A stretch of DNA of 25,856 nucleotides, taken from the IMG/VR virus record IMGVR_UViG_3300033182_001262, positions 1-25,856 of that record. One strand, 5' to 3'. The DNA comes from a virus. Each line of letters starts with the position of its first letter. The stretch's first letter is position 1. Below the pieces are notes generated by a model. The model ran no database searches, had not been told where the DNA came from, and worked only from the letters and a program-made list of their open reading frames with translations. Position numbers and translations under genes: made by a program. Below, in pieces: positions 7,138 to 25,856 of this stretch.

Positions 7138-7146
7138 GAGGAATCA

Positions 7147-8960: not shown

Positions 8961-8965
8961 CACGC

Positions 8966-10761: not shown

Positions 10762-11030
10762 TTTTCGCTCCAGTCAGAAATGCGTTTGAAAATAGGAATG
10801 AAAATCAAACCAATGATACAACCAAATGCTGTGCCAAACGCAAGGTCCCAGCTGGCTGTGCTAGCACCTCCTAGAAAGTCACTAACAGCATTGCCAATGC
10901 CTGCGCCTACAACAGCAGCAAGTCCTTTTTGAAATCTAGCCGGTAGATACTTTTCAACACTGAGCCCAGTCATTGCGCCTAGTATCATGATAGCATTGTC
11001 TACAATACCAAAAATTATGAATTGAATCAT
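10758..11030 (-). CDS. Small membrane protein, holin-like in form (90 aa)
   Basis: A 90-residue hydrophobic protein with about three membrane-capable segments: residues 2-22 (FIIFGIVDNAIMILGAMTGL), 35-53 (GLAAVVGAGIGNAVSDFLGG) and 61-81 (LAFGTAFGCIIGLIFIPIF), ending in a charged tail (KRISDWSEK). Size and topology fit a phage holin, but no holin family motif is recognised. It sits between gp14 and gp15, not next to a lysis enzyme. Glycine-rich helices and the DNA/SD pattern (GIVDN, GNAVSD) look conserved-family-like. Start and stop overlap both neighbours (TAATG upstream, ATGA downstream), so expression is tightly coupled to neck-protein synthesis. Membrane location is a confident reading; lysis function is only a guess. 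Confidence 0.75.
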   Translation of the reverse strand: MIQFIIFGIVDNAIMILGAMTGLSVEKYLPARFQKGLAAVVGAGIGNAVSDFLGGASTASWDLAFGTAFGCIIGLIFIPIFKRISDWSEK

Positions 11031-12106
11031 TATGAGTTTTCATCCTTTGGTGGTAATACTTGAGATAGTGGAGTTCGTACATCAAACTCGTCGTTGTGAA
11101 CACTGTCTTTGCCCATTTGATTTACAAAGTCTTCCACAGTGCTGTATACACTATCATCCCAAGTTCTTGTTGTAATGTTGTCGTATAGTCTGACCCATTT
11201 GGCACCTCTGCGCACAAACAATCTGTTTGGATCAAAGTCTGTACGTATAAAATAGTCGCCTTCATTTGGATCAGCTGGGAAACTCAAACCAGTTGGTATT
11301 GTTTCGCCGTGGTTATATGCATTGCTAGCAGGTGCAGCACCTGTGTACAAATGGTCGTCGTCTTTTTCGCCTTTGTAGTTTTCTTCTGCTTGTGCAATAA
11401 TTTTTTCGTTGTAATCAAGTTCTTGGTTGTATGTGCTAACAAGACTTGCAAGGCTGTCTTGATCATCATTGCTGCCCAACAAATTGGTGTATTCTTGTGA
11501 ATCGTTTAGCGGTGATAATTTTACACGCCAAATGTGCGGGTACCAAGTTTGACTGAAGCCTTCGCTGCCTCTGCTTGCATCAGTTACAGTGTAAAATTTG
11601 GGTATTGGTTTTTTACTTTGATCCAATGCAAGTTCGTCTAGCAGGTGTGGCATTTCAATAACATCACCTGCCATAAGACGTCTGCCCATTCTAGTGATCA
11701 TGTCGTTTTGATGGAATGTCATAAACAGTGTGTCGTTTGTTAGAAACAAACCAAATTGCGACAAATCAAAATCAGTGTCTGCTACATTGTACACTCCGCG
11801 AAGTTCATAAATGTCAGGATCGTACATTCTGTCTCTGTTTTCCAAAAACAATATGTCCTGTACATCCAGTTCATTCAATGATGCTTCTAAATTTGTTTCA
11901 ATGTCGTTTGCATCTGTCATACTACTGTCCAAGTAGTTGGGTTGGCTCTTGTCGTCTGTGCTGTTGACCACAGCATCTGCATCAGGACCCAGGTACTTGT
12001 GTACTATAACACCTACTCCGCCAATGTCAAATTGTTCACGGATGGTTCTATCCATGAAATAGTAATCACTGGTTTTCTGAGATTTGTATAAACTCAGTCT
12101 AGGCAT
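11030..12106 (-). CDS. gp14: Neck protein gp14-like (358 aa)
   Basis: Features matching my recollection of marine T4-like gp14 are QDILFLENRDRMYDPDIYEL, FGLFLTNDTLFMTFHQND, the ADG-type segment RLMAGDVIEMPHLLDE, and IPKFYTVTDASRGSEGFSQT followed by WYPHIWRVKLSPLNDSQEY. In T4, gp13 and gp14 form the neck that joins the filled head to the tail. Its position beside gp15 supports the call. Residues 273-310 (PADPNEGDYFIRTDFDPNRL…GAKWVRLYDN) are a beta module repeated in the gp15 and gp18 homologues. ATG at 12106 has AGAGGA upstream and overlaps the previous gene by 8 nt. gp13 lies on the opposite strand about 1.3 kb away (measured from the operon's first gene), unlike the collinear T4 order. Confidence 0.75.
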   Translation of the reverse strand: MPRLSLYKSQKTSDYYFMDRTIREQFDIGGVGVIVHKYLGPDADAVVNSTDDKSQPNYLDSSMTDANDIETNLEASLNELDVQDILFLENRDRMYDPDIYELRGVYNVADTDFDLSQFGLFLTNDTLFMTFHQNDMITRMGRRLMAGDVIEMPHLLDELALDQSKKPIPKFYTVTDASRGSEGFSQTWYPHIWRVKLSPLNDSQEYTNLLGSNDDQDSLASLVSTYNQELDYNEKIIAQAEENYKGEKDDDHLYTGAAPASNAYNHGETIPTGLSFPADPNEGDYFIRTDFDPNRLFVRRGAKWVRLYDNITTRTWDDSVYSTVEDFVNQMGKDSVHNDEFDVRTPLSQVLPPKDENS

Positions 12107-12725
12107 TATAGTCCTCTCTGACCAACTGCATTACATCTTCGTCTACTACAACATTGTCATAGTACCAGTCGATTTTGCCAGCAGCAAATGCAGCTTCTAG
12201 CAGCGTTTCGTGTTCATCGTTGGCCATGTAGTCTTGTATTACATCTTCGTGTTCCAGCATTTCTCCGCTGAAATGACTCAGTCCATATGAACTGAATTCA
12301 AATGATTTGATTTCTTCTTCGTTGATATTGCTCAATGGACGGCTAAAGATAAAAAATTCTTTGGTATATTCTCTAAGAAGATTTACTGCAATAGGTGCCT
12401 GGCTGTAATCGTCGATGTCTGCACTGTTGTTAGGTTCTGCAATGTATGTAGCCTTTGACTGTTGGCTTTGCAACAGCATGTCTATGTTTTGATTTTCAAA
12501 AACATAAAAAACATCAGTGAGCAACAGTACCCAATCGTAGTTGTTTTCTTTGAACCAATCAATGTGTTCACGCGGATCTCGTTGACCGGAGTCAGGTAGC
12601 AAATACTTGGTATCTTCTACACCAATATCTAATCTATCCAAGCTCATGCTCATCTGAGCTATCCATTTGTCAATGTGCGCTTCACTGAAGTCGTTCATGT
12701 TCCATACTATTGCACCTATTTTCAT
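12099..12725 (-). CDS. Hypothetical protein, first gene of the minus-strand neck operon (208 aa)
   Basis: ATG at 12725 is preceded by AGGAG and by a late promoter on the minus strand. The protein begins MKIGAIVWNMNDFSEAHIDK and contains a hydrophobic strand NYDWVLLLTDVFYVFENQN. It then becomes very acidic (NINEEEIKSFEF, MLEHEDVIQDYMANDEHETL, VVVDEDVMQLVRED). The alternating beta strand and helix pattern and the strand ending in an acidic residue are loosely reminiscent of a GT-A or Rossmann-like domain, but no DxD triad is clear. I do not recognise the family. Overlap with gp14 suggests a role in, or coexpression with, tail/neck assembly. Confidence 0.7.
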   Translation of the reverse strand: MKIGAIVWNMNDFSEAHIDKWIAQMSMSLDRLDIGVEDTKYLLPDSGQRDPREHIDWFKENNYDWVLLLTDVFYVFENQNIDMLLQSQQSKATYIAEPNNSADIDDYSQAPIAVNLLREYTKEFFIFSRPLSNINEEEIKSFEFSSYGLSHFSGEMLEHEDVIQDYMANDEHETLLEAAFAAGKIDWYYDNVVVDEDVMQLVREDYNA

Positions 12726-12746
12726 GGTAAGTCTCCTGGTTACTAG

Positions 12747-12754
12747 TATTTATT
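12747..12754 (-). promoter_or_regulatory. Late promoter element for the minus-strand operon (AATAAATA)
   Basis: The plus strand reads TATTTATT, so AATAAATA lies on the minus strand, 21 nt before the operon's first ATG. Standard late geometry puts the start near 12741. The resulting leader of about 16 nt contains the AGGAG at 12737-12733. Confidence 0.7.
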
Positions 12755-12757
12755 TGA

Positions 12758-12786
12758 TTGACAACTATTCAATACTGCTATATACT
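12758..12786 (+). promoter_or_regulatory. Strong sigma70-like promoter for the 12814 gene
   Basis: TTGACA (12758-12763), exactly 17 nt, TATACT (12781-12786): a consensus -35 and a 5/6 -10. It is divergent from, and immediately beside, the minus-strand late promoter, so one 76-nt gap serves two transcription programmes. Confidence 0.8.
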
Positions 12787-12813
12787 TACACAGTAAAATG
12801 AATGGAGATACCT

Positions 12814-13983
12814 ATGGCTCGTGCAGCAAAAGCAGCAAAAGTAACAAAACGCAAAGCACCTCGTAGACAAAGACGTGGCAGTGAGTGGGATATGGTTCCG
12901 GTTGACAAGGGCTGGCATGCAGCACAGTATCATATTCATTACATGATCGAAAGTAAATCATGGGAAACCAAAGTACGTGAGTATATCAAAAAACACTATG
13001 ATAAGAAAACTGTTGCGGCTATCAATAAGCTACCGGCTTGGAAGGTTGGTGGGAAGAGCCACTATGCAACTGCGGCTGTTTTTGAAGAACAACGACCTGA
13101 TTTGATACACGAAAGTTATGTAGGAAGACTTGATGCATGGATCAAAAGTCTAGCAGAAGAAGGCGCAAAGATTGTAGAAGAAAAGAAAGCTGAAGAAAAA
13201 GCCAAAAGCAAACGCTATGTGCCTACTATTCAGGAACGGCTAGAAGAAGCAGCAGAAATCAAGTACGAAAACATTGAAGGATGGCTAGACGACTTCATTC
13301 GTGATCCAAAGAAGAATCCGCTAAAAGGACACAACATACTTGGTGAGCTGAAAAAACAAGGTGTCAACTTGGGACATGTGCGTTTTTACAAAAAATGGTA
13401 TGCAGGTCCGCAGGATGAAATCGACGAGCTTATGACACTGCCCCCTGCTAACAAGCGTAACGAAATGCAAAAGCAACTAGCAGAAGGATACAGCACATAT
13501 ACAAAAGCGCAACTGAAAGATCTACAGATGTTCTATCAGCGTCTGTTTCAAGCATTTGACATTTTGCAAGCAGAAAACAAACACAATCGTATTGTGCGCA
13601 AGCCCAAAAAGAAAAGTGCAGCTGAACTAACCAAGAAAATGAAGTACAAAATCAGTGATCCAGATTTTGGCATTGCCAGTGTGAAGCCAGAAGAAATTGT
13701 TGGTGCAAACATGCTGGTGGTGTTCAACTGTAAAACTAGAAAACTGGGCATATACTATCCTGAGGATCATGCACAGTTCAGTGTAAAAGGCACAACACTA
13801 CAGTTCTTTGACGAGAAACGCAGTACACAGAAAACAGTGCGCAAGCCACTTGAAGTACTGCCTGAGTACAAAAAAGCACCCAAAACACGCTGCATGAAAC
13901 TGTATGAAAGTCTCAAAACCACAAACACAAAAATGAACGGACGTTTCAATGACGAGACCGTCATACTGAGAGTTTTCAAATAA
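12814..13983 (+). CDS. Conserved-looking hypothetical basic protein (389 aa)
   Basis: ATG at 12814 lies 5 nt after GGAGA (12804-12808); the in-frame ATG at 12802 overlaps that Shine-Dalgarno and is unlikely to be used. The N-terminus is very basic (MARAAKAAKVTKRKAPRRQR), suggesting nucleic-acid or capsid contact. Next come GWHAAQYHIHYMIESKSWET, an E/K-rich coiled-coil stretch (IVEEKKAEEKAKSKR) near residues 120-140, and a C-terminal beta-rich part (ANMLVVFNCKTRKLGIYYPE, VKGTTLQFFDEK, TRCMKLYESLKTT). I have a faint recollection of similar proteins in cyanomyoviruses, annotated only as hypothetical. A strong sigma70-like promoter predicts expression earlier than the surrounding structural genes. 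The gp13 late promoter overlaps its last codons. Confidence 0.75.
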   Translation: MARAAKAAKVTKRKAPRRQRRGSEWDMVPVDKGWHAAQYHIHYMIESKSWETKVREYIKKHYDKKTVAAINKLPAWKVGGKSHYATAAVFEEQRPDLIHESYVGRLDAWIKSLAEEGAKIVEEKKAEEKAKSKRYVPTIQERLEEAAEIKYENIEGWLDDFIRDPKKNPLKGHNILGELKKQGVNLGHVRFYKKWYAGPQDEIDELMTLPPANKRNEMQKQLAEGYSTYTKAQLKDLQMFYQRLFQAFDILQAENKHNRIVRKPKKKSAAELTKKMKYKISDPDFGIASVKPEEIVGANMLVVFNCKTRKLGIYYPEDHAQFSVKGTTLQFFDEKRSTQKTVRKPLEVLPEYKKAPKTRCMKLYESLKTTNTKMNGRFNDETVILRVFK

Positions 13984-13986
13984 ATA
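13979..13986 (+). promoter_or_regulatory. Late promoter element abutting gp13 (AATAAATA)
   Basis: AATAAATA overlaps the stop of the 12814 gene. Its last base is 5 nt before the gp13 ATG, so standard late spacing places +1 on the A of the start codon (13992). No Shine-Dalgarno precedes gp13, consistent with a leaderless message. Confidence 0.65.
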
Positions 13987-13991
13987 ATAGC

Positions 13992-14729
13992 ATGACAGCT
14001 ACAAATGACCTAATCAAAGAAATAGAACTTCGCCTTGGCGGACAAATGGTAGACGTAGAGCTTGATCCTGAGCACTACGATCTTTGTGTTCGCAAGGCAT
14101 TGGAAAAGTATCGCCAACGTGCAGAAAACAGTGTCGAAGAAGCATTTGTGTTTTTAGACATTGTGGAAGAAGTAAGCGAGTATATACTGCCTAAAGATAT
14201 CATCGAAGTGCGTGATATCTATCAAAGGACCAGTGGTACCAATCAAAGTACAGGAAACGATATTGAACCATTTGAAGCAGCATACTTGAACACCTATTTG
14301 TTAGCAGGTGGTAGAGCAGGTGGTTTAGCAACATTTGATGCGCTACAGCAGCACAGAGAAACACTGGGCAGATTGTTTGGTTCAGAAATACTTTTTACTT
14401 GGAACGAACGTAACAAAAAACTCACACTGCACAGAAAAGTCAAAGCCAACAACAGTGTGGTACTGCATGTTTACAAAGAAGTAGGACAAGATGCACTACT
14501 AGAAGATGTATATGCAGGACCATGGCTAAAAGAATATGCACTGCAACAAGCCAAACTAATTCTAGCAGAAGCACGTGGCAAGTTTACACAGATTGCTGGG
14601 CCACAGGGCGGCACTACATTGAACAGTGATGCATTGAGAGTTGATGCACAGACTGCATTGGAAAAACTAGAACAAGATCTAAAAACCTATGCAGAAGGCT
14701 CAGCAGGCTTTGGCATCATTATTGGCTAA
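13992..14729 (+). CDS. gp13: Neck protein gp13-like (245 aa)
   Basis: Matches my recollection of cyanophage gp13. Landmarks are IEIELRLG-type N-terminal helix (LIKEIELRLGGQMVDVELD), ALEKYRQRAENSVEEAFVFL, EYILPKDIIEVRDIYQR, EPFEAAYLNTYLLAGG, GRLFGSEILFTWNERNKKLT, AGPWLKEYALQQAKLILAEA, RGKFTQIAGPQGGTTLNSDA and a C-terminal GFGIIIG. In T4, gp13 binds the portal vertex after packaging and, with gp14, forms the neck for tail docking. Length is somewhat below T4 gp13 (309), as usual for marine relatives. It sits directly upstream of gp18, not next to gp14, which is on the other strand. There is no Shine-Dalgarno; see the overlapping late promoter. Confidence 0.88.
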   Translation: MTATNDLIKEIELRLGGQMVDVELDPEHYDLCVRKALEKYRQRAENSVEEAFVFLDIVEEVSEYILPKDIIEVRDIYQRTSGTNQSTGNDIEPFEAAYLNTYLLAGGRAGGLATFDALQQHRETLGRLFGSEILFTWNERNKKLTLHRKVKANNSVVLHVYKEVGQDALLEDVYAGPWLKEYALQQAKLILAEARGKFTQIAGPQGGTTLNSDALRVDAQTALEKLEQDLKTYAEGSAGFGIIIG

Positions 14730-14769
14730 TCATTATATACCCACATAACTGTAAATTAGGCGGTTTTAG

Positions 14770-14817
14770 CCCTTTCTCCCATAAATACATTTAGAAGATA
14801 CCTAACTAGAGAAAGGG
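14770..14817 (+). promoter_or_regulatory. Inverted repeat able to hide the gp18 Shine-Dalgarno
   Basis: CCCTTTCTC (14770-14778) is the exact complement of GAGAAAGGG (14809-14817), which contains the gp18 Shine-Dalgarno. The late promoter lies between the arms, so only read-through RNA carries both arms. Confidence 0.55.
14780..14787 (+). promoter_or_regulatory. Late promoter element for gp18 (CATAAATA)
   Basis: CATAAATA, the form common in cyanophage late promoters (NATAAATA), 36 nt before the gp18 ATG. Predicted start near 14793 gives a 31-nt leader carrying AAAGGGA. Confidence 0.75.
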
Positions 14818-14823
14818 AATAAA

Positions 14824-17277
14824 ATGGCTACACTAACATCACCAGGTGTATCGGTTACCATCTCAGACGAAAGCGCATACGCTTCTCCGGGTGCAGGCAC
14901 AGTACCTCTGATTATCCTTGCAACAGCAAACGATAAAACAGATCCAACTGGTGCAGCATCAGACGGAATTGCAGCAAGCACCAAGTCTTCGGCAGCCAAT
15001 GTACCAGTACTGGTTACTTCACAAAGAGAACTATCACAAAAATTTGGTAATGTCTCTTTTGCATCTACAGCAGGTGCAGAAACAAGCGAATACGGTCTAC
15101 TAGCAGCATACAGCTTCCTAGGACAAGGCGGTAGCGCATACATTCAACGTGCAGATATTGACCTATCGGCTCTAACTGCAACAACAACAGAACCAACTGC
15201 GGCATACAGCACAGCGGCAAGCATGTGGCTGGATACAAATGCCAGCAAGTATGGTATTCATCAATACGACGACAGCACAGGACTATGGAACAACGTAGAA
15301 CCAACTGTAGAAGTAAACCTTGATGCAACTGCTAATGAGGCAGGCGGCGACAACTATACACCAAGTGCCACAGTTGTTGACGGCGACTTCCTGGTTGTTG
15401 TACACGGCGATCAAGATGGTGATCTATCACTTGAATATTTCTACGGTGTAAGCAGTGCATGGGAAGTACTAGACAGTGACGCAGCATTGAGCTCAGGCGA
15501 AACTGTAACATATGCACCACACTACAGCCTACCAAGTTCACCAGGCGATGACGATATTTGGATCAAAACAACAAGACCTGCAAATGGTATTGATCTAAAG
15601 ATCTATACATTCAGCAACAGCAAGTTCAACTTGCAAACTGTTGTAGGTGTTACAAGTGCACTAACAGCTGGCAAATCAACTGCAATTGGCGACTTCCGCA
15701 AGCAAGACGGTACAAGCACAACTGCACTAACAGCTAGCGATGTAAGCGAAAATCAACTGCTACTTGACTTGGAAGTGAACACAAAAGCTGTAATCACTAT
15801 TCAGCAAGTTGACGGTGATGATGCACCAGAAAATCTAAGTGCATACACAAGCAAACTAGCACAAAACGACACGCCAACTGCAACAGCAGCAAACGGCACA
15901 TACTGGCATGATAGCACAGTAAACAGTCTAGACCTATACAAAGCAACATCAAGTGGTTGGGAAGCTGTAACTGCAACGTATTCAAGCAGTGAGCCAACAT
16001 CACCAAGCGACGGCGATGTTTGGGTTGACACAACTGGTGCAACAGGTGCTAACGAACGTGCATATCCAGCAATTTATGTGTATAACAACACATTGACTGA
16101 TTGGGTCAAGCACAGCAACACAGACCAAACCACAGAACGTGGTGTTCTATTTGCTGATATCACTGACACAGCAAGCGATAATACAAACGGTGGTTATGCA
16201 ACAGTAATCACAAATGGTCCAAGTCACACTGTTTATCCAACGGGTATGATGGCTGTGAACATGGGTCAAAGTAAAAACACTGTAAGATCGTACAACACCA
16301 CAGCAAGTGCATGGCGCAACGCAGCAGCTAACCACGCAGATGGTTCAGGTGCATTTGGACGTCTAGCACAGCGTAAAGTTGTTGCAAGCAAATTGCAAGC
16401 GGCAGCAGCAGCCAGTGAACTACTAGAAGAAACAATTGACTTCAAACTTATTGCAGCACCAGGTTATCCTGAACTAGCTGACGAAATGTACACAATCAGC
16501 AACAACAGAAACAACACAGCGTTTGTTATTGTTGACTCACCACTTCGTAAAACAGTAGCAGAAGCAATTACTTGGGTAAATGGTACAAGTGCAGATGAAA
16601 ACGGTGAAGACGGTCTAAACACCAAAAACACATATGCTGCAACATACTATCCAGCATTGAAAGCAACTAACCCAACTGACGGTAAAACAGTTGTTACATA
16701 TGCATCACACAGTGTACTATATCAGTATGCATACAACGACTCAATCAGCTACGAATGGTTTGCACCAGCTGGTCTAAACAGAGGTGTTGTAACAAATGCT
16801 AGCGGTGTAGGTTACATTGATGACGAAGGCGAGTTCAAAGCATTGAGTCTAAACAGCGGCGACAGAGATAAACTGTATGCAGCTAAACTAAACCCAATTG
16901 CAAACTTCCCAGGTACAGGCATTGTTCTATATGGACAAAAATCACTGCATGCAACAACAACTGCACTTGATCGTGTAAACGTTGCAAGATTGGTTGCACA
17001 CCTACGTGGACGCTTTGATGAGATTGCTCGTCCGTTCTTGTTTGAACAAAACGATCAATTGACACGTGACAGAGCAAGATTGGTATTCAATCGCTTCCTA
17101 GAAAACATTGCTAGCCAGCGTGGTATTACTGACTTTGCAGTTGTGTGTGATGAGTCAAACAACACACCAGCACGTATTGATGCAAACGAACTGTACATTG
17201 ATATCGCAATTGCTCCAACCAAGAGCATTGAGTTTATCTACATTCCAGTGCGTATTGTAGCAACAGGCACACTGTAA
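14824..17277 (+). CDS. gp18: Tail sheath protein gp18-like (817 aa)
   Basis: The N-terminus (MATLTSPGVSVTISDESAYA) and the C-terminal third identify a contractile sheath subunit: AAPGYPELADEM, NNTAFVIVDSPLRKTVAEAI, then YFNP-type WFAPAGLNRGVV, GTGIVLYGQKSLHATTTALD, RVNVARLVAHLRGRF, and LVFNRFLENIASQRGITDF through IEFIYIPVRIVATGTL. gp18 polymerises around the tube and contracts during injection. It is longer than T4 gp18 (659). Extra length falls in the protruding region, about residues 122-420, which holds four degenerate GDxWxxT-type beta modules with tryptophans at 135, 246, 361 and 400. The start has GGGA 5 nt upstream. A late promoter precedes it and a terminator follows, so gp18 is a largely self-contained high-output unit. 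Confidence 0.93.
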   Translation: MATLTSPGVSVTISDESAYASPGAGTVPLIILATANDKTDPTGAASDGIAASTKSSAANVPVLVTSQRELSQKFGNVSFASTAGAETSEYGLLAAYSFLGQGGSAYIQRADIDLSALTATTTEPTAAYSTAASMWLDTNASKYGIHQYDDSTGLWNNVEPTVEVNLDATANEAGGDNYTPSATVVDGDFLVVVHGDQDGDLSLEYFYGVSSAWEVLDSDAALSSGETVTYAPHYSLPSSPGDDDIWIKTTRPANGIDLKIYTFSNSKFNLQTVVGVTSALTAGKSTAIGDFRKQDGTSTTALTASDVSENQLLLDLEVNTKAVITIQQVDGDDAPENLSAYTSKLAQNDTPTATAANGTYWHDSTVNSLDLYKATSSGWEAVTATYSSSEPTSPSDGDVWVDTTGATGANERAYPAIYVYNNTLTDWVKHSNTDQTTERGVLFADITDTASDNTNGGYATVITNGPSHTVYPTGMMAVNMGQSKNTVRSYNTTASAWRNAAANHADGSGAFGRLAQRKVVASKLQAAAAASELLEETIDFKLIAAPGYPELADEMYTISNNRNNTAFVIVDSPLRKTVAEAITWVNGTSADENGEDGLNTKNTYAATYYPALKATNPTDGKTVVTYASHSVLYQYAYNDSISYEWFAPAGLNRGVVTNASGVGYIDDEGEFKALSLNSGDRDKLYAAKLNPIANFPGTGIVLYGQKSLHATTTALDRVNVARLVAHLRGRFDEIARPFLFEQNDQLTRDRARLVFNRFLENIASQRGITDFAVVCDESNNTPARIDANELYIDIAIAPTKSIEFIYIPVRIVATGTL

Positions 17278-18037: not shown

Positions 18038-18703
18038 ATGGGGATCAGGAATTATGCAATTGATTACTACTCTACTTCGACAGCTAGTGTAAAACTCCCT
18101 AAGCTGAAGTTCGCTCACGCAGTTCAGTTCATGGTTGATCCTGATATCCCATTGCTACAAGACCTTTACAGAGCAACACAAGGTTACACATTTGATGTAA
18201 CCAGTGTTACACTGCCTACTGTGACATACAACACAAACACAGTAAACAGTTACAACAAAAAGCATATATATCACACAAACAAGTCATATGCACCAGTTCA
18301 AATTACACTGCGTGATACAAGAGATAGTGCATTGAACGTTGGTCTTGCAGCATATGATCGTGTGTTTTTCAACAGTGCAGGACCTGACAGACCTACAGCA
18401 AGAAATGTATTGGGCTTTGGCAACACCGCAGAAGGCCTCAAACTAAACGATTCAAAAGATCCAATTCAACAGATCAATATCTTTACCTATCATCCAAATA
18501 AACAAAAAGTAGCTGATCAGTACAAGTTGATTAGGCCTATTGTTACCAACATTGCCAGAGACACTGTTTCATATGCAGATAGCAGTCCGATAGAAATCAG
18601 CATCACAGTTGAATATGAATACTATGATTATTCATTGGTAACTGATGCTCCGATACCAAGCACTATACAAAACGATAGATCAAGTGTACTAGGTCCTAAC
18701 TAA
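18038..18703 (+). CDS. Second tail-tube-like protein, gp19 paralogue (221 aa)
   Basis: The layout parallels gp19: KLPKLKFAHAVQFMVDPD at the first strand, FDVTSVTLPTVTYNTNTVNS, YNKKHIYHTNKSYAPVQITL then RDTRD (compare AGKHTLDPVTIVLRDDV), a helical stretch, PIQQINIFTYHPN, and the closing strand PIEISITVEYEYYDYS. Sequence identity to gp19 is low by eye. It could be a tube variant, a tube-terminator or initiator ring (T4 gp3 and gp54 are tube-associated), or a tail-tip protein. It follows gp19 after 17 nt with only a weak AGGT upstream and overlaps gp4 by TAATG. Virion location is well supported; the exact ring position is not. Confidence 0.75.
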   Translation: MGIRNYAIDYYSTSTASVKLPKLKFAHAVQFMVDPDIPLLQDLYRATQGYTFDVTSVTLPTVTYNTNTVNSYNKKHIYHTNKSYAPVQITLRDTRDSALNVGLAAYDRVFFNSAGPDRPTARNVLGFGNTAEGLKLNDSKDPIQQINIFTYHPNKQKVADQYKLIRPIVTNIARDTVSYADSSPIEISITVEYEYYDYSLVTDAPIPSTIQNDRSSVLGPN

Positions 18704-19149
18704 TGGCTAAGTATATCCAAGGCGCTTTTGAGCCGCAAAACCCTACAAAATATATCGGTAAACACACACCGAGATACCGCAGTGGTTGGGAATTGGCATT
18801 CATGCGCATGTGTGATAATCATCCCAACATCATTGCATGGGCCAGCGAATCACACAGAATACCATATGTGAATCCTGTAACAGGAAAAAGAACCACATAC
18901 GTACCAGATTTTTTTATGGTATACGAAGATAAAAATGGCAAGCGTCATGCAGAAGTAGTTGAAGTAAAACCCAACAGTCAAATCATGGGAAATGCTCGCA
19001 ACAAACACGACAAGATGCATGCAGTTGTCAATGAAGCAAAATGGCGTATGGCCAGCCAATGGGCACGATCACAAGGTCTAGGCTTTAGAGTTATTACAGA
19101 AAACGAAATTTTCAACAAGCCAAAAGGCAGCAAACGGAAAAAACGATGA
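18703..19149 (+). CDS. gp4: Head completion protein gp4-like, nuclease fold (148 aa)
   Basis: Matches T4 gp4 features: KYIGKHTPRYRSGWELAFMR with MCDNHPNIIAWASESHRIPY, then TTYVPDFFMVYEDKNGKRHA and EVVEVKPNSQ. D69 and E87-V-K89 form a PD-(D/E)xK-like constellation. In T4, gp4 (with gp2) is needed to finish heads before tail joining. The length (148) is close to T4 gp4 (about 150). The C-terminus is strongly basic (KPKGSKRKKR). It starts on TAATG shared with the tube paralogue and overlaps gp16 by ATGA, so translation is coupled. Placement next to the small terminase differs from coliphage T4. Confidence 0.85.
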   Translation: MAKYIQGAFEPQNPTKYIGKHTPRYRSGWELAFMRMCDNHPNIIAWASESHRIPYVNPVTGKRTTYVPDFFMVYEDKNGKRHAEVVEVKPNSQIMGNARNKHDKMHAVVNEAKWRMASQWARSQGLGFRVITENEIFNKPKGSKRKKR

Positions 19150-19661
19150 CCAAGAAACTAGAAGATGAATTCAATTTGCCTCCAATGAGTTACACAGAAC
19201 CAGACACAGGCGAAGAAGTCACAACAGAATTTACCACAACCGACATCATGGATGCAATTGGTGCAGCAGACAAAATTGATGCAGCACTGCCGCAGGTAAC
19301 TGGACTAGACTCGCTGGACAAAGACATGGACGAATATGCACAAAAAGCAATGAGTACGTTTGACGATCTAGTGTCATTGGGCAACAATGTAGAAGACCGT
19401 CATGCTGCAATGATATTTGATACAGCCAGCAAAATGATGACCAATGCTATTACAGCCAAAACAGCAAAGATGGACAAGAAGCTGAAGATGATTGAATTGC
19501 AAATGCGCAAAAGCAAATTGGATTTGGACGAGCGTAAATTTGCAGCCAGCGACAAAGGCGGTGCAGTAATACACCACGACAGTGAAGAGATTGTAGACAG
19601 CAGAAACAGCATGTTGGAAAGTCTCAAAAGTATTGCAGATAGCCTAAAAAACGATAAATAA
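19146..19661 (+). CDS. gp16: Small terminase subunit gp16-like (171 aa)
   Basis: The central segment (about residues 75-135) is characteristic of gp16: DDLVSLGNNVEDRHAAMIFD, ASKMMTNAITAKTAKMDKK and LKMIELQMRKSKLDLDERK form long helices that build the oligomeric ring. Length is near T4 gp16 (164). gp16 recognises or regulates concatemer DNA and stimulates the gp17 ATPase/nuclease. It is about 2.9 kb from gp17, separated by four other genes, whereas T4 has 16 and 17 adjacent. Starts on ATGA overlapping gp4; its last codons are overlapped by a late promoter for the next gene. Confidence 0.85.
   Translation: MTKKLEDEFNLPPMSYTEPDTGEEVTTEFTTTDIMDAIGAADKIDAALPQVTGLDSLDKDMDEYAQKAMSTFDDLVSLGNNVEDRHAAMIFDTASKMMTNAITAKTAKMDKKLKMIELQMRKSKLDLDERKFAASDKGGAVIHHDSEEIVDSRNSMLESLKSIADSLKNDK
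19653..19660 (+). promoter_or_regulatory. Late promoter element before the head-cassette genes (GATAAATA)
   Basis: GATAAATA overlaps the gp16 stop codon, 19 nt before the next ATG. Predicted +1 near 19666 leaves a 14-nt leader that still contains TGGAGA (19668-19673). Confidence 0.65.
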
Positions 19662-19679
19662 CTACAGTGGAGAAAAGAC

Positions 19680-20213
19680 ATGAATTATTTGAAAGCATAT
19701 CTCACTGAGTCTAAGAAAGATTACAAGTACAGAATCAAGACCACAGTTGAAGTAACAGACAATATGATGGATGCACTTGAAGAGCATCTAAAAAAGTACG
19801 ATGTCGCAGAAGTCAATACTCCTAAGAAAACAATACTACAGAGTGCTCCAATTGACTTCCCAGGCACACGTGGTGCGGAAGTGACGATTGTAGACATTAC
19901 CAGTAACGTTCCAGCAAGCCAATTTGCACTGATGACAGAAGTTTGCAAAATTTGGAATGCAGGCGAAAACCAAGTGAAAGTAAGAGCACACAACGAGCCA
20001 GCAATGGCACGTGAGCTAGCCGAAGAGGCAGCAAAAGAACAAGAAACAAAAGCACTGCTTGACGAAGAAACATATGAAGCAGATGCAAAAGAAACAGTCG
20101 ATCACAACGACTATTACGGCGAAGACTTCAAGGACAACTTCGTCAAGGAAATGATGAAATTACGTAGAGAGCAGCAACCAGAAGGTGTTGGCTACGAAGG
20201 AGAAAAGGCATGA
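19680..20213 (+). CDS. Uncharacterised protein with putative capsid-targeting N-terminus (177 aa)
   Basis: It begins MNYLKAYLTESKKDYKYRIK. The first ten residues end in L-T-E, resembling T4 internal-protein targeting peptides (MKTYQEFIAE in IPIII), which gp21 protease cuts after I/L-x-E. The core (residues 15-105) alternates strands and helices (YKYRIKTTVEVTDNMMDALE, APIDFPGTRGAEVTIVDITS) like one or two ferredoxin-like units; similar proteins occur widely in marine phages, function unknown to me. The last 70 residues are acidic and helical (ARELAEEAAKEQETKALLDE). Behind its own late promoter and Shine-Dalgarno; overlaps the next gene by ATGA. Internal head or scaffold protein is an inference. 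Confidence 0.75.
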   Translation: MNYLKAYLTESKKDYKYRIKTTVEVTDNMMDALEEHLKKYDVAEVNTPKKTILQSAPIDFPGTRGAEVTIVDITSNVPASQFALMTEVCKIWNAGENQVKVRAHNEPAMARELAEEAAKEQETKALLDEETYEADAKETVDHNDYYGEDFKDNFVKEMMKLRREQQPEGVGYEGEKA

Positions 20214-20716
20214 ACATCAACGACCTGCAGAAGCTAGCTGGCTTGCCAATCACTGAATGGGCCAATACACCTGCACATACAAATCACCCAGAACCAGAAG
20301 AAATCGACGTACCAGAAGCTGACGTAGATCAAAGTCTACGCCGCTACTTGAACGCTGATCCAATGCCAGTTACTGTAACTGAAGATCACACAGTTGAAGG
20401 TATGATGAAAAGTTTCAAAGATTACTTGGCAGAAGGTGAAGAAGAGCTCGAAGAAGGTCGCATGAAAGACTCAGTAATTCATGATTCAGAAACAATGTCA
20501 AAAGAAGAATTTGCTAAAAAACATGGCAAAGAATTAGCAGACGAGATGTACGAATCAGTAGAAGAAGTTGAAGCAGTTGAAGAAAAAGAAAAGGCTGATG
20601 AAAGCATGGATCCAGATATTGCAGCACTGAGAAAACTAGCCGGCATTGGCGAACAAACAACATCGCAGACGGTATCAGAAGATATTATTGCACTGAAAAA
20701 ACTAGCAGGTATCTAA
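20210..20716 (+). CDS. Acidic protein with repeated LxKLAGI motifs, candidate internal head/scaffold protein (168 aa)
   Basis: A very acidic, low-complexity protein (EGEEELEEGRMKD, VEEVEAVEEKEKADES). It starts MNINDLQKLAGLPITEWANT, an amphipathic peptide followed by I-T-E, a candidate prohead-protease site. A second FKDYLAEGEEE site (L-A-E) lies near residue 75. The motif DIAALRKLAGI occurs near residues 143-152 and again as DIIALKKLAGI at the extreme C-terminus, with the related LQKLAGL at the N-terminus. No enzymatic motif is seen. Composition resembles T4 small acidic head proteins such as gp67. It overlaps the previous gene by ATGA and is followed 1 nt later by a gene with the same C-terminal tail. 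Function not assigned. Confidence 0.75.
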   Translation: MNINDLQKLAGLPITEWANTPAHTNHPEPEEIDVPEADVDQSLRRYLNADPMPVTVTEDHTVEGMMKSFKDYLAEGEEELEEGRMKDSVIHDSETMSKEEFAKKHGKELADEMYESVEEVEAVEEKEKADESMDPDIAALRKLAGIGEQTTSQTVSEDIIALKKLAGI

Positions 20717-20717
20717 G

Positions 20718-21398
20718 ATGAGTTTAGCAGAGAGAATCAAACAGTATTTGGCAGAAGATATTGAAGAAGCAAGCATGGGCGCACCGGACTACAATCCAGC
20801 TGCTGGCAAATATGCTAGCAATATGGACTATGGCATGTTCACCGACGGTGGCAACGAAGAAGTAGAAGAAATTGTTGTTGCTGCATGTGACTTGGTCAAA
20901 GATGGTAAAATGGACAGCAGAAAAGCAGTTGATGCTGCAATGCAAATGCTAACCATGCTAGCAGACGATACTCCGCATGACGAAGCAGAAGATACCGATG
21001 TACGTGAAAGAGTAGCACGTGAAATCATGTCACGCTGTGATGACATGGATGAGTCTGTAGATGAAGCAGTAGGCGAACCAGCTTCACCAATTTATGATCT
21101 AATCGACGAAGTTGGATCACATCAGATTGTAATGGATGAACTAATACGTTACTTGGATGTTGACCAAATTGAAGAGTTTGTTGCAGATTTCCGTAGACAC
21201 CATGACATGAACGAAGCAGACGTTGAAGAAAACGCATTCAATCAAGCAGCCGCAGCGGCAGCAAGAGCACACAAAGATGAGTTTGAATTCAACGGTAAGA
21301 AATACAAGACCAAGATGAGCAAGGCAACTGCTCACGAACTAAATGATTCCGTTAGTAATGAAGACCTAGCAGCACTACGTAGGCTAGCAGGCATCTAA
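20718..21398 (+). CDS. Acidic protein sharing the ALRRLAGI tail, candidate head protein (226 aa)
   Basis: The N-terminus MSLAERIKQYLAEDIEEASM has a basic amphipathic helix ending in L-A-E, like a capsid-targeting peptide. Helical acidic regions follow (RKAVDAAMQMLTMLADDTPH, SHQIVMDELIRYLDVDQIEE, FVADFRRHHDMN). Then comes AFNQAAAAAARAHKDEFEFN with GKKYKTKM, a short segment I recall from other marine phage proteins. The protein ends NEDLAALRRLAGI, matching the tail of the preceding gene product. It starts 1 nt after the upstream stop and is closed by a terminator at 21410. Function unknown; membership in a matured internal-protein cassette is inferred from the shared terminal motifs and position between the terminase genes. 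Confidence 0.75.
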   Translation: MSLAERIKQYLAEDIEEASMGAPDYNPAAGKYASNMDYGMFTDGGNEEVEEIVVAACDLVKDGKMDSRKAVDAAMQMLTMLADDTPHDEAEDTDVRERVAREIMSRCDDMDESVDEAVGEPASPIYDLIDEVGSHQIVMDELIRYLDVDQIEEFVADFRRHHDMNEADVEENAFNQAAAAAARAHKDEFEFNGKKYKTKMSKATAHELNDSVSNEDLAALRRLAGI

Positions 21399-21409
21399 TC
21401 ATTTATACT

Positions 21410-21436
21410 AGGCTGCACAAGTTGCAGCCTTTTTTT
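21410..21436 (+). terminator. Rho-independent terminator closing the gp19-to-head-cassette unit
   Basis: AGGCTGCA (21410-21417) and TGCAGCCT (21423-21430) form an 8-bp stem with a 5-nt loop, followed by a T-run (21430-21436), 11 nt past the preceding stop. Confidence 0.88.
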
Positions 21437-21443
21437 CTGACTT

Positions 21444-21451
21444 GGTAAATA
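21444..21451 (+). promoter_or_regulatory. Near-consensus late promoter element (GGTAAATA)
   Basis: One mismatch to NATAAATA, placed 5 nt before ATG 21457, the same spacing as at gp13 and at the 24082 gene, and just after a terminator, where a new promoter is needed. No other promoter is apparent. Confidence 0.5.
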
Positions 21452-21456
21452 ATACT

Positions 21457-22518
21457 ATGAGAGCAAGACAATTTTTATTCGAGTATGACAATGTAGATCA
21501 GTTGAAAGCTGAGATCCTCAAAACGATCAACAGCATAGACACTGCGGCCGGCGATGAAAAAATGCAAAAGCAGAATGCCGAGCTGTTGGATCGTGTTTAC
21601 ACAATTCTCAACAAAAGCAACGTAGTAGACAGATTCCAGTCAGTACTTCCGTCGGTGTTGCGTGGCGAATACAACGATCAAGAAATTATGAAGATTGCTG
21701 GCAAGATCAGCGAAGCACCTATCAGCTACAAAGACAAAGTTCGTTTTGTGAGTAACTTGGAAAAAGACACTGTGATCAATCCTAAGGTTTTGATTACACC
21801 TGGTCAGTACACAATTGATGAACTGTGTAACAATGATCCTGTAAACAAGGCAATGTTTGATCATTTGAAAATTTACGGTGTTGGGCAAAAAATGAAAGGT
21901 CCAGCAGAACATGCTCTTGCTATTCTAAGTCAAAAAATATCAATTGAAGGCAAAGGCGATGTTACTATTGGCAATGTCGCTGTTGAAGTAAAAGCTGCTG
22001 TAGGTGAAAAACTTGGCAGCGGTGGTGGGCGTTTTGGCGAAACTGGCAGACTGCCAAGTAGACAAACAATGGTAGACATACTGCAAAGTTTTGAAGTGCT
22101 TGCACCCACAGTGAATCAATTCTTAGAACGTCAAGCTAGCATGAATGTAGAAACCTTTGTAAAACTTGTTGATCAAGTAAACCCAGATCCAAATACACGC
22201 AAAGCAATTGGTCAGAAAGTATTTGGTACAATATTTGGCAATGAAGCAGCACCTGTTGTTGATACATTTGCACGTGGTGCAAGTCCAGATGAAGTTCGTC
22301 GTGCATACATTGAAAGCAACTTCAACTGGTACAAGAACAGCGATATGGGCGGCGACTGGAGTGTATTGTGTAGCATCAGTTTTGCAAACAATTCAGTAGC
22401 AACTATTACATCAGGTGACGATCTTAGAAACATCACCATGTACAAAAAGAACCCTGCAATTATTACAACTGATAAGCCGCAGGAAATGTTGTTCCAATTC
22501 AATCCAAAGAACGCATAA
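21457..22518 (+). CDS. Uncharacterised protein with nuclease-like D…ExK motif and putative capsid-targeting N-terminus (353 aa)
   Basis: I choose ATG 21457 (MRARQFLFEYDNVDQL); the in-frame TTG at 21442 lies inside the late promoter. The first nine residues end L-F-E, again resembling a prohead-protease-cleaved targeting peptide. The middle holds KGDVTIGNVAVEVKAAVGEK (D168, E177, K179), a PD-(D/E)xK-like constellation, followed by a Gly-rich GSGGGRFGETGRLPSRQT segment. The N-terminal third is helical; the C-terminal part includes FNWYKNSDMGGDWSVLCSIS and NITMYKKNPA strands. I do not recognise a named family. Possibilities are a packaged or ejected nuclease, a terminase-associated factor, or a structural protein with a degenerate nuclease fold. 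It lies 1 nt before gp17. Confidence 0.75.
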   Translation: MRARQFLFEYDNVDQLKAEILKTINSIDTAAGDEKMQKQNAELLDRVYTILNKSNVVDRFQSVLPSVLRGEYNDQEIMKIAGKISEAPISYKDKVRFVSNLEKDTVINPKVLITPGQYTIDELCNNDPVNKAMFDHLKIYGVGQKMKGPAEHALAILSQKISIEGKGDVTIGNVAVEVKAAVGEKLGSGGGRFGETGRLPSRQTMVDILQSFEVLAPTVNQFLERQASMNVETFVKLVDQVNPDPNTRKAIGQKVFGTIFGNEAAPVVDTFARGASPDEVRRAYIESNFNWYKNSDMGGDWSVLCSISFANNSVATITSGDDLRNITMYKKNPAIITTDKPQEMLFQFNPKNA

Positions 22519-22519
22519 T

Positions 22520-24073
22520 ATGACAGTAGATACAGGACTCATAAAACGTCCGCACCAGGATCAATCCTTTACAAGAGACCAAATGATGGAATTGGCTCAG
22601 TGTATGGCTGACCCAAAATACTTTGCATTGAACTTTTGTTATATTCAGCATCCTACCAAAGGACGTATGAAGTTTGCTTTGTATGAGTATCAACATGAAT
22701 TGTTGGATACCTACAATGACTACAGATACAGTATCAGCTTGTTGCCACGACAAACAGGCAAGTCGACCTGTGCGGCTGCATACTTGCTTTGGTATGCAAT
22801 GTTTCAACCAGACAGTACTATTCTTATTGCTGCACACAAGTATTCAGGTGCACAGGAAATCATGCAGCGTATTAGATACATGTATGAAATGTGCCCAGAT
22901 CATATACGTGCAGGTGTAACAGCTTACAACAAAGGATCGTTGGAATTTGACAACGGATCACGTATTATTGCACAAGCAACTACAGAAAACACAGGACGTG
23001 GTTTGTCACTTACATTGGTGTACTTGGACGAATTTGCATTTGTGCCACCTAGAGTTGCACAGGAGTTCTGGACTTCACTATCACCAACATTGAGTACAGG
23101 TGGTAAATGTTTTATTACCAGTACGCCAAACCAAGACGACGATCAGTTTGCACGTATTTGGAAAGATGCTGAAAAGCGACTGGACGAATATGGCAATGAA
23201 ACAGATGTAGGCAAAAACGGATTTAGAAGTTTCCGTGTACACTGGAGCGATCATCCTGATAGAGATCAACAGTGGGCAGACAGCGAACGTAACAAAATTG
23301 GCGAAGAACGTTTTAGACGTGAACACGAATGTGAATTTATTGCGTTTGATGAAACATTGATCAACAGTTTGAAACTGCCAGACTTGGAAGGTGTAGATCC
23401 ATTGGAACGCATTGGACAAGTGCGTTGGTACACCAAACCACAGCGTGGCAGTACATTCATTGTAGGGCTTGATCCTAGCTTGGGTACTGGTGGCGACAAT
23501 GCAGCTATACAGGTGTACAGTTTGCCTAAACTAGAACAAGTAGCAGAATGGCAACACAACAAAACACCTATACAAGCACAAATAAGAATCATGCACAGTA
23601 TTATACAAGCATTAGATGAAGTACCAGATAGCGAAATATATTGGAGTGTGGAAAACAACACATTGGGCGAAGCAGCATTGGTAGCCATCAATGAAATGGG
23701 TGAAGACAATTTCGCTGGCACATTCCTTAGTGAACCCAAGCGTTCTGGCAATGCTAGACGATTTAGAAAAGGATTCAACACCACACACAAAACAAAAATT
23801 GCAGCCTGTGCAAAGTTCAAGCAGTGGGTAGAATCTGACAAGATGAAAATACGCAGCAAGAACTTGATACGTGAAGTCAAAACATTTGTAGCACGTGGCA
23901 ACAGCTATGCCGCCAAAGACGGTGAAACAGATGATCTTGTAATGGCAACAATGCTGTGTACACGCATGATTCAAAACGTTGTAAGATATGACGAGAACGC
24001 ATTCAGTATGATGAACGAATCTGATGGCAGTGATGACGAAGTAAGAATGCCAATGCCGATAGGTTTTATATAA
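22520..24073 (+). CDS. gp17: Large terminase subunit gp17-like (517 aa)
   Basis: The ATPase has a Walker A-like LLPRQTGKSTCAA (R77 to S82; K81 is the P-loop lysine) and Walker B LVYLDEFAFVPP (D170, catalytic E171), with ITSTPN as the coupling motif. The RNase H-like nuclease has VGLDPSLGTGGDNAAI (D318), SVENNTLGEAAL (E378) and GETDDLVMATML (D471/D472), equivalent to the T4 gp17 acidic triad. It cuts concatemers and pumps DNA into proheads. At 517 residues it is shorter than T4 gp17 (610). I use ATG 22520 (MTVDTGLIKRPHQD): it follows the upstream stop by 1 nt, whereas an upstream in-frame start at 22415 would overlap that gene by about 100 nt. A late promoter for the next gene overlaps its end. 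Confidence 0.95.
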   Translation: MTVDTGLIKRPHQDQSFTRDQMMELAQCMADPKYFALNFCYIQHPTKGRMKFALYEYQHELLDTYNDYRYSISLLPRQTGKSTCAAAYLLWYAMFQPDSTILIAAHKYSGAQEIMQRIRYMYEMCPDHIRAGVTAYNKGSLEFDNGSRIIAQATTENTGRGLSLTLVYLDEFAFVPPRVAQEFWTSLSPTLSTGGKCFITSTPNQDDDQFARIWKDAEKRLDEYGNETDVGKNGFRSFRVHWSDHPDRDQQWADSERNKIGEERFRREHECEFIAFDETLINSLKLPDLEGVDPLERIGQVRWYTKPQRGSTFIVGLDPSLGTGGDNAAIQVYSLPKLEQVAEWQHNKTPIQAQIRIMHSIIQALDEVPDSEIYWSVENNTLGEAALVAINEMGEDNFAGTFLSEPKRSGNARRFRKGFNTTHKTKIAACAKFKQWVESDKMKIRSKNLIREVKTFVARGNSYAAKDGETDDLVMATMLCTRMIQNVVRYDENAFSMMNESDGSDDEVRMPMPIGFI

Positions 24074-24076
24074 ATA
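24069..24076 (+). promoter_or_regulatory. Late promoter element abutting the 24082 gene (TATAAATA)
   Basis: Perfect TATAAATA across the gp17 stop. Its last base is 5 nt before the next ATG, so +1 is predicted on the A of that ATG. No Shine-Dalgarno is present within 15 nt of the start. Confidence 0.7.
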
Positions 24077-24081
24077 GTATT

Positions 24082-25407
24082 ATGGACAGTTCAAACATTG
24101 CAGAAAAGATTTTTGATTACGTAAAGGGACTGGGCGAGCATGTCGTCCTTTTCACAACCACTGGCGAAAGCACGTTGGATACAAACGATGCTAGACGCTT
24201 TTACTTGAAAGACAGTAAGATAATGATTCACTTGGATGACAGTGAAAGTCGTGAAGAACTGAAAGTGATGTTCGGCGGTGAAGTTTCGCCAAAGCAATAC
24301 GAACACATTTTCAAAGGTCTCAAAAACATTGCACACAAAAATCTCATCGAGTTTACACTAAAACGATTCAGCAAACAAATTGAACCAAAAGACTTTGCAT
24401 ATCAAGGAAGCGTAGCTATGAAACAAGAAACAAACGAAAGTTTTAGCAAGCCATACGGCAAAACTAAAACCAGTTACCAAGAGCTGAAGGACAGCAAAAT
24501 TATCATCAAGCATAAAAAAGCAGTCAACGAAGAAGTTCGCGGTAGTAGAAGTAGAAACATTCAAGCCATTTACTTAGAGAACAGCGCAGGTGAACGCTTC
24601 CAATATCCATATAATCACCTAGCTGGCGCACGTGCAATGCTACGTCATGTAAAAGAAGGCGGCAATCCATATGATGATTTTGGACAGCACATCATTGAAC
24701 AAAGCAAAGAACTTGGCGACCTTATGAAGTTTGAACGTTGGGTCAACGGTAACAAACTGCATGAAGGCAACGAAGAAGAAGTCGAATTGGTAAAAGAAGC
24801 AAAGACACGTATTCGCGAACACATCAAGCGTCTACAAACTGAAGCATACTACAAAGAGTGTTCATGCGAATACAAAGCAAAAAGCTTCACTGCAAGTCCT
24901 ACAAAAGTAAATAAGATGCGTGAACGTTTTACTGCTAAGAATTTTGACGAAGGACTAAACGATGCATTGGGTATTGTTACACGTCTAGTCGCTGAAAATC
25001 GTGCAGCAAAAGAAGCGCAAGATGATGTTGTACAATTGGTACAGTACATCAACAAAAACAAGAACATTGCGTTCCGTGGCGTAGAAGCAGATGACCCTGC
25101 AAATCCAGAAGCAGAAAATCAAAACAAATACGCAGGTCCGCAAGGTAAAACAGCAAAATTGGGTGCAATGGCTAGTTACCTAGCACAGCGCACAATGGAT
25201 GACACTGTCAGCAATCACCTAGCAAGGCTGGCTGACAATGTTCATATTATGAGCCCTAAATTTTTACTTGGGGTTGAAAAAGTGATTGACTTCTTGTACA
25301 AATCTGCTACAATGAAAAAAGAACAGGCAGTAGCAAGTTCAAGCGTAGCAGATCAAGCATATGAATCACTTGAAGAATCATTTGAAATTTTTGAACCAAA
25401 GTTCTAA
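24082..25407 (+). CDS. Uncharacterised protein downstream of gp17 (441 aa)
   Basis: It begins MDSSNIAEKIFDYVKGLGEH; a perfect late promoter ends 5 nt upstream. The protein is mixed charged. It has DSKIMIHLDDSESREELKVM, a lysine-rich stretch (DSKIIIKHKKAVNEE), then RNIQAIYLENSAGERFQYPY and NHLAGARAMLRHVKEGGNPY. A long helical, coiled-coil-prone region follows (residues about 235-330, EEEVELVKEAKTRIREHIKR). The C-terminus is alanine/glutamate rich and ends SFEIFEPKF. I have seen similar sequences in marine phages only as hypothetical proteins. No catalytic motif, signal peptide or membrane segment is visible. Late expression suggests a virion or assembly role. It is followed by a switch to a sigma70-like promoter for gp32. 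Confidence 0.75.
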   Translation: MDSSNIAEKIFDYVKGLGEHVVLFTTTGESTLDTNDARRFYLKDSKIMIHLDDSESREELKVMFGGEVSPKQYEHIFKGLKNIAHKNLIEFTLKRFSKQIEPKDFAYQGSVAMKQETNESFSKPYGKTKTSYQELKDSKIIIKHKKAVNEEVRGSRSRNIQAIYLENSAGERFQYPYNHLAGARAMLRHVKEGGNPYDDFGQHIIEQSKELGDLMKFERWVNGNKLHEGNEEEVELVKEAKTRIREHIKRLQTEAYYKECSCEYKAKSFTASPTKVNKMRERFTAKNFDEGLNDALGIVTRLVAENRAAKEAQDDVVQLVQYINKNKNIAFRGVEADDPANPEAENQNKYAGPQGKTAKLGAMASYLAQRTMDDTVSNHLARLADNVHIMSPKFLLGVEKVIDFLYKSATMKKEQAVASSSVADQAYESLEESFEIFEPKF

Positions 25408-25414
25408 ATTTCAC

Positions 25415-25444
25415 TTGACAAATATCGTTGTTTGGCTGTATACT
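25415..25444 (+). promoter_or_regulatory. Strong sigma70-like promoter for gp32
   Basis: TTGACA (25415-25420), 18 nt, TATACT (25439-25444). The leader of about 50 nt contains AGGAGA (25489-25494) and a CATAGG repeat (25475-25480 and 25486-25491). GTCAAGCAA at 25455-25463 also occurs in the palindrome at 6550. Confidence 0.8.
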
Positions 25445-25500
25445 AACACTTATAGTCAAGCAAATTGGCAAAACATAGGCATATACATAGGAGAAACATT

Positions 25501-25856
25501 ATGGCTTCATTGGCAGAAATTCGTGCAAAACTACTGGCACAGGAAAATAACAGCAGTTCGAGCAGCAGCTCAGGTGGTGGTGACAACGGAATCTTTCCGT
25601 TTTGGAACCTAGAAGAAAACAAATCAGCAACAGTACGATTCCTAAACGATGGCGATACGACGAACGATTTCTTTTGGAAAGAGCGTCAAATGATTCGTCT
25701 GGACTTTCCTGGTATCAAAGGACAAGCAGACAGTCGTCGTGTTACAGTAAACGTTCCGTGCATGGAAATGTGGGAACCAACTGGTTCATGTCCTGTACTG
25801 GCTGAAGTACGTCCTTGGTTCAAAGATCCTTCACTAGAAGATATGGGTCGTAAGTA
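25501..25856 (+). CDS. gp32: Single-stranded DNA-binding protein gp32-like, 3' truncated by the window edge
   Basis: It begins MASLAEIRAKLLAQENNSSS, matching the marine gp32 N-terminal cooperativity helix followed by a Ser/Gly linker. The OB-fold start follows: FPFWNLEENKSATVRFLNDG, NDFFWKERQMIRLDFPG, then VNVPCMEMWEPTGSCPVLAE and VRPWFKDPSLEDMGRK at the window end (118 codons seen). gp32 coats ssDNA in replication, recombination and repair. C87 and C97 have the C-x9-C spacing of two T4 zinc ligands, but the positions of the other two T4 ligands are not Cys/His (L100 where T4 has the last Cys). The zinc site therefore looks absent or altered. It is driven by a sigma70-like promoter with a clear Shine-Dalgarno (AGGAGA), in line with early/middle expression. 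Confidence 0.92.
   Translation, partial: MASLAEIRAKLLAQENNSSSSSSSGGGDNGIFPFWNLEENKSATVRFLNDGDTTNDFFWKERQMIRLDFPGIKGQADSRRVTVNVPCMEMWEPTGSCPVLAEVRPWFKDPSLEDMGRK

Follow-up and report, generated by a model that had tools for sequence, protein, structure and literature searches.

The viral record IMGVR_UViG_3300033182_001262, analyzed here over its full 25,856 bp (the window), covers part of the genome of a marine jumbo myovirus of the T4 superfamily; its large terminase shares 56% identity with that of the Pseudomonas jumbo phage PA5oct. On the 3' side of its tail sheath, tail tube and head-closure genes, it contains a cassette of four genes (positions 19680-22518), called A to D here; all coordinates given below for cassette features are on the plus strand. 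The original prediction, made from the letters alone, had proposed that the four products all begin with a T4-like capsid-targeting peptide ending in an (L/I)xE prohead-protease site and that they form an undescribed set of packaged proteins, either delivered with the DNA or used as inner scaffold. All four open reading frames and their starting peptides were found at these positions. Gene A (19680..20213) encodes 177 amino acids, with an N-terminal tag (MNYLKAYLTE, followed by S), a ferredoxin-like domain and an acidic tail. Gene B (20210..20716; 168 amino acids) encodes an acidic protein with several tags, which starts with MNINDLQKLAGLPITE followed by W, and gene C (20718..21398; 226 amino acids) an acidic protein with a tag at each end, starting with MSLAERIKQYLAE followed by D. 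Finally, gene D (21457..22518; 353 amino acids) encodes a protein with a candidate PD-(D/E)XK core, which starts with MRARQFLFE followed by Y. As for the proposed location of the cassette between gp16 and gp17, profile searches confirmed gp17, while the gene at 19146, formerly called gp16, had phrog_16202, a family of unknown function, as its sole match, and the name gp16 is thus unverified.

The N-terminal targeting peptide of A, MNYLKAYLTE (19680..19709), has a predicted gp21 site after E10 and is strongly supported by comparison. E10 is kept in 33 of 35 A homologues, including those of Escherichia, Agrobacterium and Vibrio jumbo phages, and, in an alignment with a mean column identity of 34%, Y7, L8 and E10 rank with the most strongly conserved columns and are invariant in the 29 marine homologues. 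The marine consensus, MKSLKxYLxE, aligns residue for residue (M1, K2, S/T3, aromatic 7, L/I8 and E10) with MKTYQEFIAE, the N-terminus of the T4 ipII and ipIII sequences fetched for comparison, although the window's own A starts with M-N-Y and not with M-K-S/T. Further homologues begin with MNKLQKILTE (GAP32), MNRLQQILTE (121Q), MKDLNTILTE (Vibrio 2.275.O) and MKTLQDYLTE (Atu_ph07), and one A homologue shares with T4 IPII and IPIII an N-terminal match to phrog_2667, "internal head protein". A itself is a member of PHROG 14802, "virion structural protein" (profile match over residues 1-162, E 3.8e-16), a family matched by 29/29 marine A homologues and to which GAP32 gp204, 121Q 557 and PA5oct gp282 belong. 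The set was therefore only partly undescribed, the PHROG entry stating no function, tag or processing. The AlphaFold2 model of A (mean predicted local distance difference test score, pLDDT, of 70) shows an N-terminal helix (residues 2-11) followed by a ferredoxin-like domain, residues 13-123 matching ferredoxin-like folds with a Z score of about 7. Assignments of A as a pterin kinase, ribosomal protein S6 or an ACT domain were rejected, these matches being read merely as the common ferredoxin-like arrangement.

Searching the 25.9-kb window with the PF03420 profile gave no match to a gp21-type protease because the record is only a fragment, a point which was resolved by two longer contigs, G001 and G010, representing the same virus species. 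G001 is ~97% identical to window positions 18918-25856, while G010 shares 95.8% identity with positions 5952-16239 (10.3 kb) and ~93% identity with most of positions 1-5540, with a tetranucleotide correlation of 0.98. G010 carries the gp21-type protease on which the original prediction depended (PF03420, E 8.9e-26), and its gp23 capsid protein, in which the same motif was looked for, contains KSYLTE|TADAG (the bar marks the candidate cut). At the equivalent position, marine capsid proteins read YLTE|T, YLSE|A or LSE|S. In T4 gp23, FLTE ends at residue 65, and the N-terminal region removed has 65 residues (PMC9958956). The 121Q capsid protein has a mass of 42.2 kDa by sequence and a mature form of 37 kDa (PMC5646251); a cut after its MLTE (first 43 residues) removes 5.0 kDa. 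For the cassette proteins, a cut after YLxE or LxE is proposed; the capsid protein offers the protease candidate sites of this form (YLTE|T). Candidate self-processing sites were also seen near the N-termini of the gp21-type proteases of L086, L089, L090, L091 and L167 (SIIIE, NIIVE, NIITE, ALVAE, NFVAE).

The N-terminal peptide of C, MSLAERIKQYLAE (20718..20756), is moderately conserved, with a site that is YLAE here, is replaced by YLGE in L002 and is shifted to NYLGTLNE in L003. Cassette proteins elsewhere start with MKTFTEYLKE (L041), MKSFTDYLNE (L049) and MKKFKDYLGE (L058). A T4-type capsid-targeting sequence, that is, an N-terminus of about ten residues like MKTYQEFIAE, is found in the A family and in C-type relatives; the resemblance is weak for D and absent from the N-terminus of B. 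The equivalence of the four sites was rejected for B, whose N-terminal site changes in relatives, and this protein does not fit the idea that all four share one type of targeting peptide with a cleavage site at its end.

B and C have in common a second kind of tag, overlooked in the original prediction, with the form LxxLAG[IL]. In B, it occurs at the N-terminus (LQKLAGL, 20225..20245), internally, followed by an IxE site (LRKLAGIGE, 20627..20653), and at the C-terminus (LKKLAGI, 20693..20713), in addition to an internal A-type tag, MKSFKDYLAE (20405..20434, residues 66-75). C ends with LRRLAGI (21375..21395). B consists of little besides such tags and the acidic linkers, variable in length, between them: between the window (20210-20716) and a near-identical virus (L001 1293-1919), it has 168 vs 208 amino acids, the difference being 40 amino acids of acidic linker, with all tags unchanged. 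The same C-terminal peptide characterizes the gp22-type scaffold of jumbo T4-like phages (PHROG 10922; 121Q gp602). The gp22-position protein of G010 has the C-terminus AEIINLRKLAGIRT, with LRKLAGIRT at its end, and the gp22-type gene beside gp21 ends in LxxLAG in 72/72 viral contigs with a readable end (13/13 distinct C-termini). This ending is also present in Atu_ph07, Vibrio 2.275.O (as IAGI), XacN1 and PA5oct, and as the variant LSGI in RaK2 and in 121Q, whose gene is annotated as a gp22-like scaffold. B and C differ from this scaffold in being shorter, in having no other similarity to it that was found, and in their location, since both are encoded at the terminase and the gp22-type gene stands separately between gp21 and gp23. 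The suggested use as inner scaffold is strengthened by these C-termini. The T4-like tags agree with known biology, whereas the scaffold-type tag seems to be new; no description of LxxLAG on non-scaffold proteins was found in the open-access literature, which does not in itself prove absence. Outside the cassette, LxxLAG was observed at or towards the C-terminus of proteins encoded by G009 (106787-107590), G006 (12856-13329) and PA5oct (155221-155847, gp249), the last being recorded as a virion protein by electrospray ionization tandem mass spectrometry (ESI-MS/MS). Another recurrent N-terminal peptide, MRxxELFE/D, was noted on otherwise unrelated proteins (L063 7189-7515, L071 9481-9981, L021 3345-3767 and L085 2073-2588).

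For the tag census, 50 cassette proteins were compared with 514 control proteins from related contigs, both sets non-redundant; because clustering at 50% identity reduces relatedness without removing it, the p-values are indicative. In its loose form, [LIF]xE with the glutamate no later than residue 16, the motif is present in 19% of controls, with a probability of ~0.0013 of finding it by chance in four of four proteins, counted post hoc. This background, together with the non-conserved N-terminal site of B, would favor the view that (L/I)xE is incidental in acidic proteins and that the genes encode ordinary late assembly or neck proteins. However, the strict forms are far above control. N-terminal [YF][LI]xE by residue 14 was found in 13/50 cassette and 2/514 control proteins (p 4e-13), C-terminal LxxLAG in 19/50 and 3/514 (p 3e-19), one of these three being gp22, and N-terminal LxxLAG in 18/50 and 2/514; a strict YLxE or a terminal LxxLAG is present in 36 of the 50 cassette proteins and 11 of the 514 controls (p about 1e-35). 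With A E10 and D E9-Y10 ranking near the top in conservation within their families, an incidental origin of the motif is very improbable. Across whole genomes, PA5oct included, the broad N-terminal pattern is little above its interior rate, indicating that the tag signal is specific to the cassette.

Records of relatives further connect these proteins with the virion. In the PA5oct record, gp282 (the A homologue) and gp281 (498 amino acids, the B counterpart by position and tag) are marked as ESI-MS/MS virion proteins, and the gp22-type gp330 is not; in addition, 121Q 557-561 are annotated as structural and GAP32 gp204, gp206, gp207 and gp208 as virion structural proteins. Head targeting with processing is thereby well supported by comparison, through the T4-like tag of A and several C-type proteins, the gp21-type protease, and the virion records of PA5oct gp282 and gp281. 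The same records bear on the fate of B and C, which could be sacrificial scaffold helpers like T4 gp67 and gp68, entering the core, being cut up by gp21 and leaving, so that only A and D would remain as cargo. C is acidic with a scaffold C-terminus, and B is acidic, has LxE-type sites between its four tags and tolerates indels while these tags stay fixed. T4 gp67 and gp68 are likewise core proteins, small and acidic, that gp21 cleaves; B and C, however, have no profile match to them, and the place of gp67/gp68 ahead of gp21 is taken in these phages by other acidic genes. The presence of gp281, and not of the scaffold gp330, among the recorded virion proteins argues against complete loss, as does the structural annotation of the tagged proteins 121Q 560 and GAP32 gp207, although scaffold remnants can persist in virions (phAPEC6 gp226, 2 peptides). 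On balance, a purely sacrificial role of B and C is plausible but somewhat on the improbable side.

It may also be asked whether the cassette supplies the inner-body rod in the heads of 121Q and phAPEC6, two jumbo coliphages belonging to the wider group. An inner body has been seen in bubblegrams of 121Q (PMC5646251), which carries the cassette as genes 557-561, with LxxLAG motifs in 560, and the phAPEC6 rod (91 x 18 nm) has, according to the literature, no sequence match to phiKZ inner-body proteins. Other virion proteins are equally possible, however, and the authors of the phAPEC6 study preferred RCC1-domain proteins. The cassette is thus a reasonable but unproven candidate for the 121Q rod, and this origin of the rod is unlikely overall.

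The N-terminal peptide of D, MRARQFLFE (21457..21483), has a predicted cut before Y10, E9 and Y10 being nearly invariant. The form [LV]xE|Y is kept in 10/10 D homologues, including VRE|Y of L137, which had been displaced by the aligner. Three of the ten, from other large phages, are proteins of ~900-1340 amino acids that carry the D domain at their C-terminal end (L132 1291-4047, L133 37-4047 and L136 1204-4068), and in these fusions LNE|Y or LFE|Y stands at the junction inside the protein, before the domain, which fits a processing site and not a mere N-terminal habit. Two of the three also start with tag-like N-termini (MKFKDIKTLEHFLLEY and MKFKNIRTLESFLKEY). Within the domain, the candidate nuclease core E151 ... 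D168 ... E177-V-K179 (21907..21993) has all four residues invariant in 10 sequences. In the AlphaFold2 model of D (pLDDT 81.6, with residues 1-10 below 50), D168 is directly before one strand, and E177 and K179 are on the next. This E...D...ExK pattern suggests a PD-(D/E)XK nuclease fold, which structure searches do not confirm: Foldseek against the PDB returned nothing significant, the match to MspI was weak (Z 3.2, in the noise; 139 aligned residues, root-mean-square deviation 5.3), and the structural matches in a viral library were uncharacterized phage proteins only. D could accordingly be imagined as an encapsidated nuclease, freed by gp21 and, once ejected, acting on the DNA of the host or of a competitor. 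The invariant residues on or near consecutive strands, the MspI match and the conservation of LxE|Y before the domain even within larger proteins speak for such a role; with a Z score in the noise and no Pfam, PHROG or PDB profile match, it is rather doubtful. Pfam, PADLOC and PDB sequence searches of the cassette proteins gave no match, nor did tblastn searches of C and D against named phages.

The cassette was also said to lie behind late promoters, and this is borne out by their placement. Seven of the seven ATAAATA sites in the window are 12-54 nt 5' of a same-strand gene start, one of them (19654..19660) preceding A; their total in the window is not above chance, and only the placement stands out. 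The TAAATA core is found 5' of A in 10/10 loci inspected and 5' of D in 7/7 other loci, the window having a late-promoter-like GTAAATA (21445..21451) immediately before D. A-B-C are set apart from D by an intrinsic terminator (21410..21437, stem 21410-21430), and L003, L139 and L140 have a different hairpin with a T-run at this position. The TAAATA core of D lies only ~5-10 nt 5' of the ATG, which leaves room for a very short leader at most, or none. In the window (21445-21457) and at seven other D loci, no clear ribosome-binding site follows the core, and the late transcript is possibly leaderless. In the surroundings of the cassette, insertions between it and the terminase were noted in two relatives (L016 4231-5493 and L074 7972-9195), including proteins with radical-SAM-like cysteine patterns, and the head-closure gene of the window (18703-19149) has a match to the N-terminal domain of TnsA-like endonucleases (PF08722, E 6.7e-20).

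The cassette therefore probably encodes accessory prohead-core or internal head proteins, recruited by two kinds of tags and trimmed by gp21, as judged by sequence comparison. The proteins would be made late, and the N-terminal T4-type peptide (MKSLKxYLxE) and LxxLAG[IL] would address them to the assembling core, where they may dock. The gp21-type protease would then cut after YLxE or LxE, detaching the tags. The multi-tag protein B would be at least partly broken down, possibly near-completely, as a scaffold helper, while A, with its ferredoxin-like domain and acidic tail, and D, with its candidate nuclease-fold domain, would stay in the head.

Several observations weigh against this proposal. 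The N-terminal site of B is lost in its nearest other relatives (LPITE to MPQTE), LxxLAG alone being conserved, and LxxLAG is linked to docking solely through its sharing between scaffold and cassette proteins. The peptides, which had been described as amphipathic, do not have hydrophobic moments above those of shuffled sequences (fractions 0.16-0.76), and neither does the T4 peptide. E10 is absent from the A homologues of PA5oct (MKSFRDYYDAS) and Phosso (MKNFYEYLSSV), and, since PA5oct gp282 is nevertheless recorded in virions, the cleavage site of A is not required for incorporation everywhere. D is without a confident structural relative and stands in the cassette only in the closest relatives. 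Finally, the virion evidence consists of record annotations of relatives, not spectra, the phage of the window being known here from its genes alone.

Compared with the T4 internal proteins, the cassette shares the tag and a gp21-type protease; in contrast, the mature proteins have no sequence relation, the genes are beside the terminase, and several products have the scaffold-type tag, which is not seen in the T4 internal proteins fetched. The inner-body and ejection proteins of phiKZ and SPN3US are similarly protease-processed and head-packaged in a jumbo phage, but involve an S80 protease, A-X-E-type sites and mostly long propeptides, whereas the cassette phage has an S77-type protease (PF03420), LxE sites and peptides of 9-13 residues. 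P1 DarB is alike by description, an N-terminal signal sufficing for head packaging, although this signal has 30 residues. Beyond the cassette itself, motif comparison leaves evenly balanced the broader proposition that LxxLAG[IL], the C-terminal peptide of gp22, is a portable docking tag in a wide jumbo T4-superfamily clade, and thus a second head-targeting code besides the T4 capsid-targeting sequence. Placed at the C-terminus, at the N-terminus or inside a protein, and sometimes followed by a protease site, it would let proteins encoded beside the terminase enter the prohead on the binding partner of the scaffold, to be released by cutting afterwards.

The heads of giant phages hold many proteins besides the DNA, and, apart from T4 and the phiKZ group, little is known of how these proteins are directed there. 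D could be a nuclease-fold protein packaged in the head. Should the tags act as proposed, genome sequence alone would suffice to predict packaged proteins across a large group of jumbo phages. The scaffold C-terminus would then be a testable loading signal, and there would be named candidates for the inner body of 121Q-type phages such as 121Q and phAPEC6.

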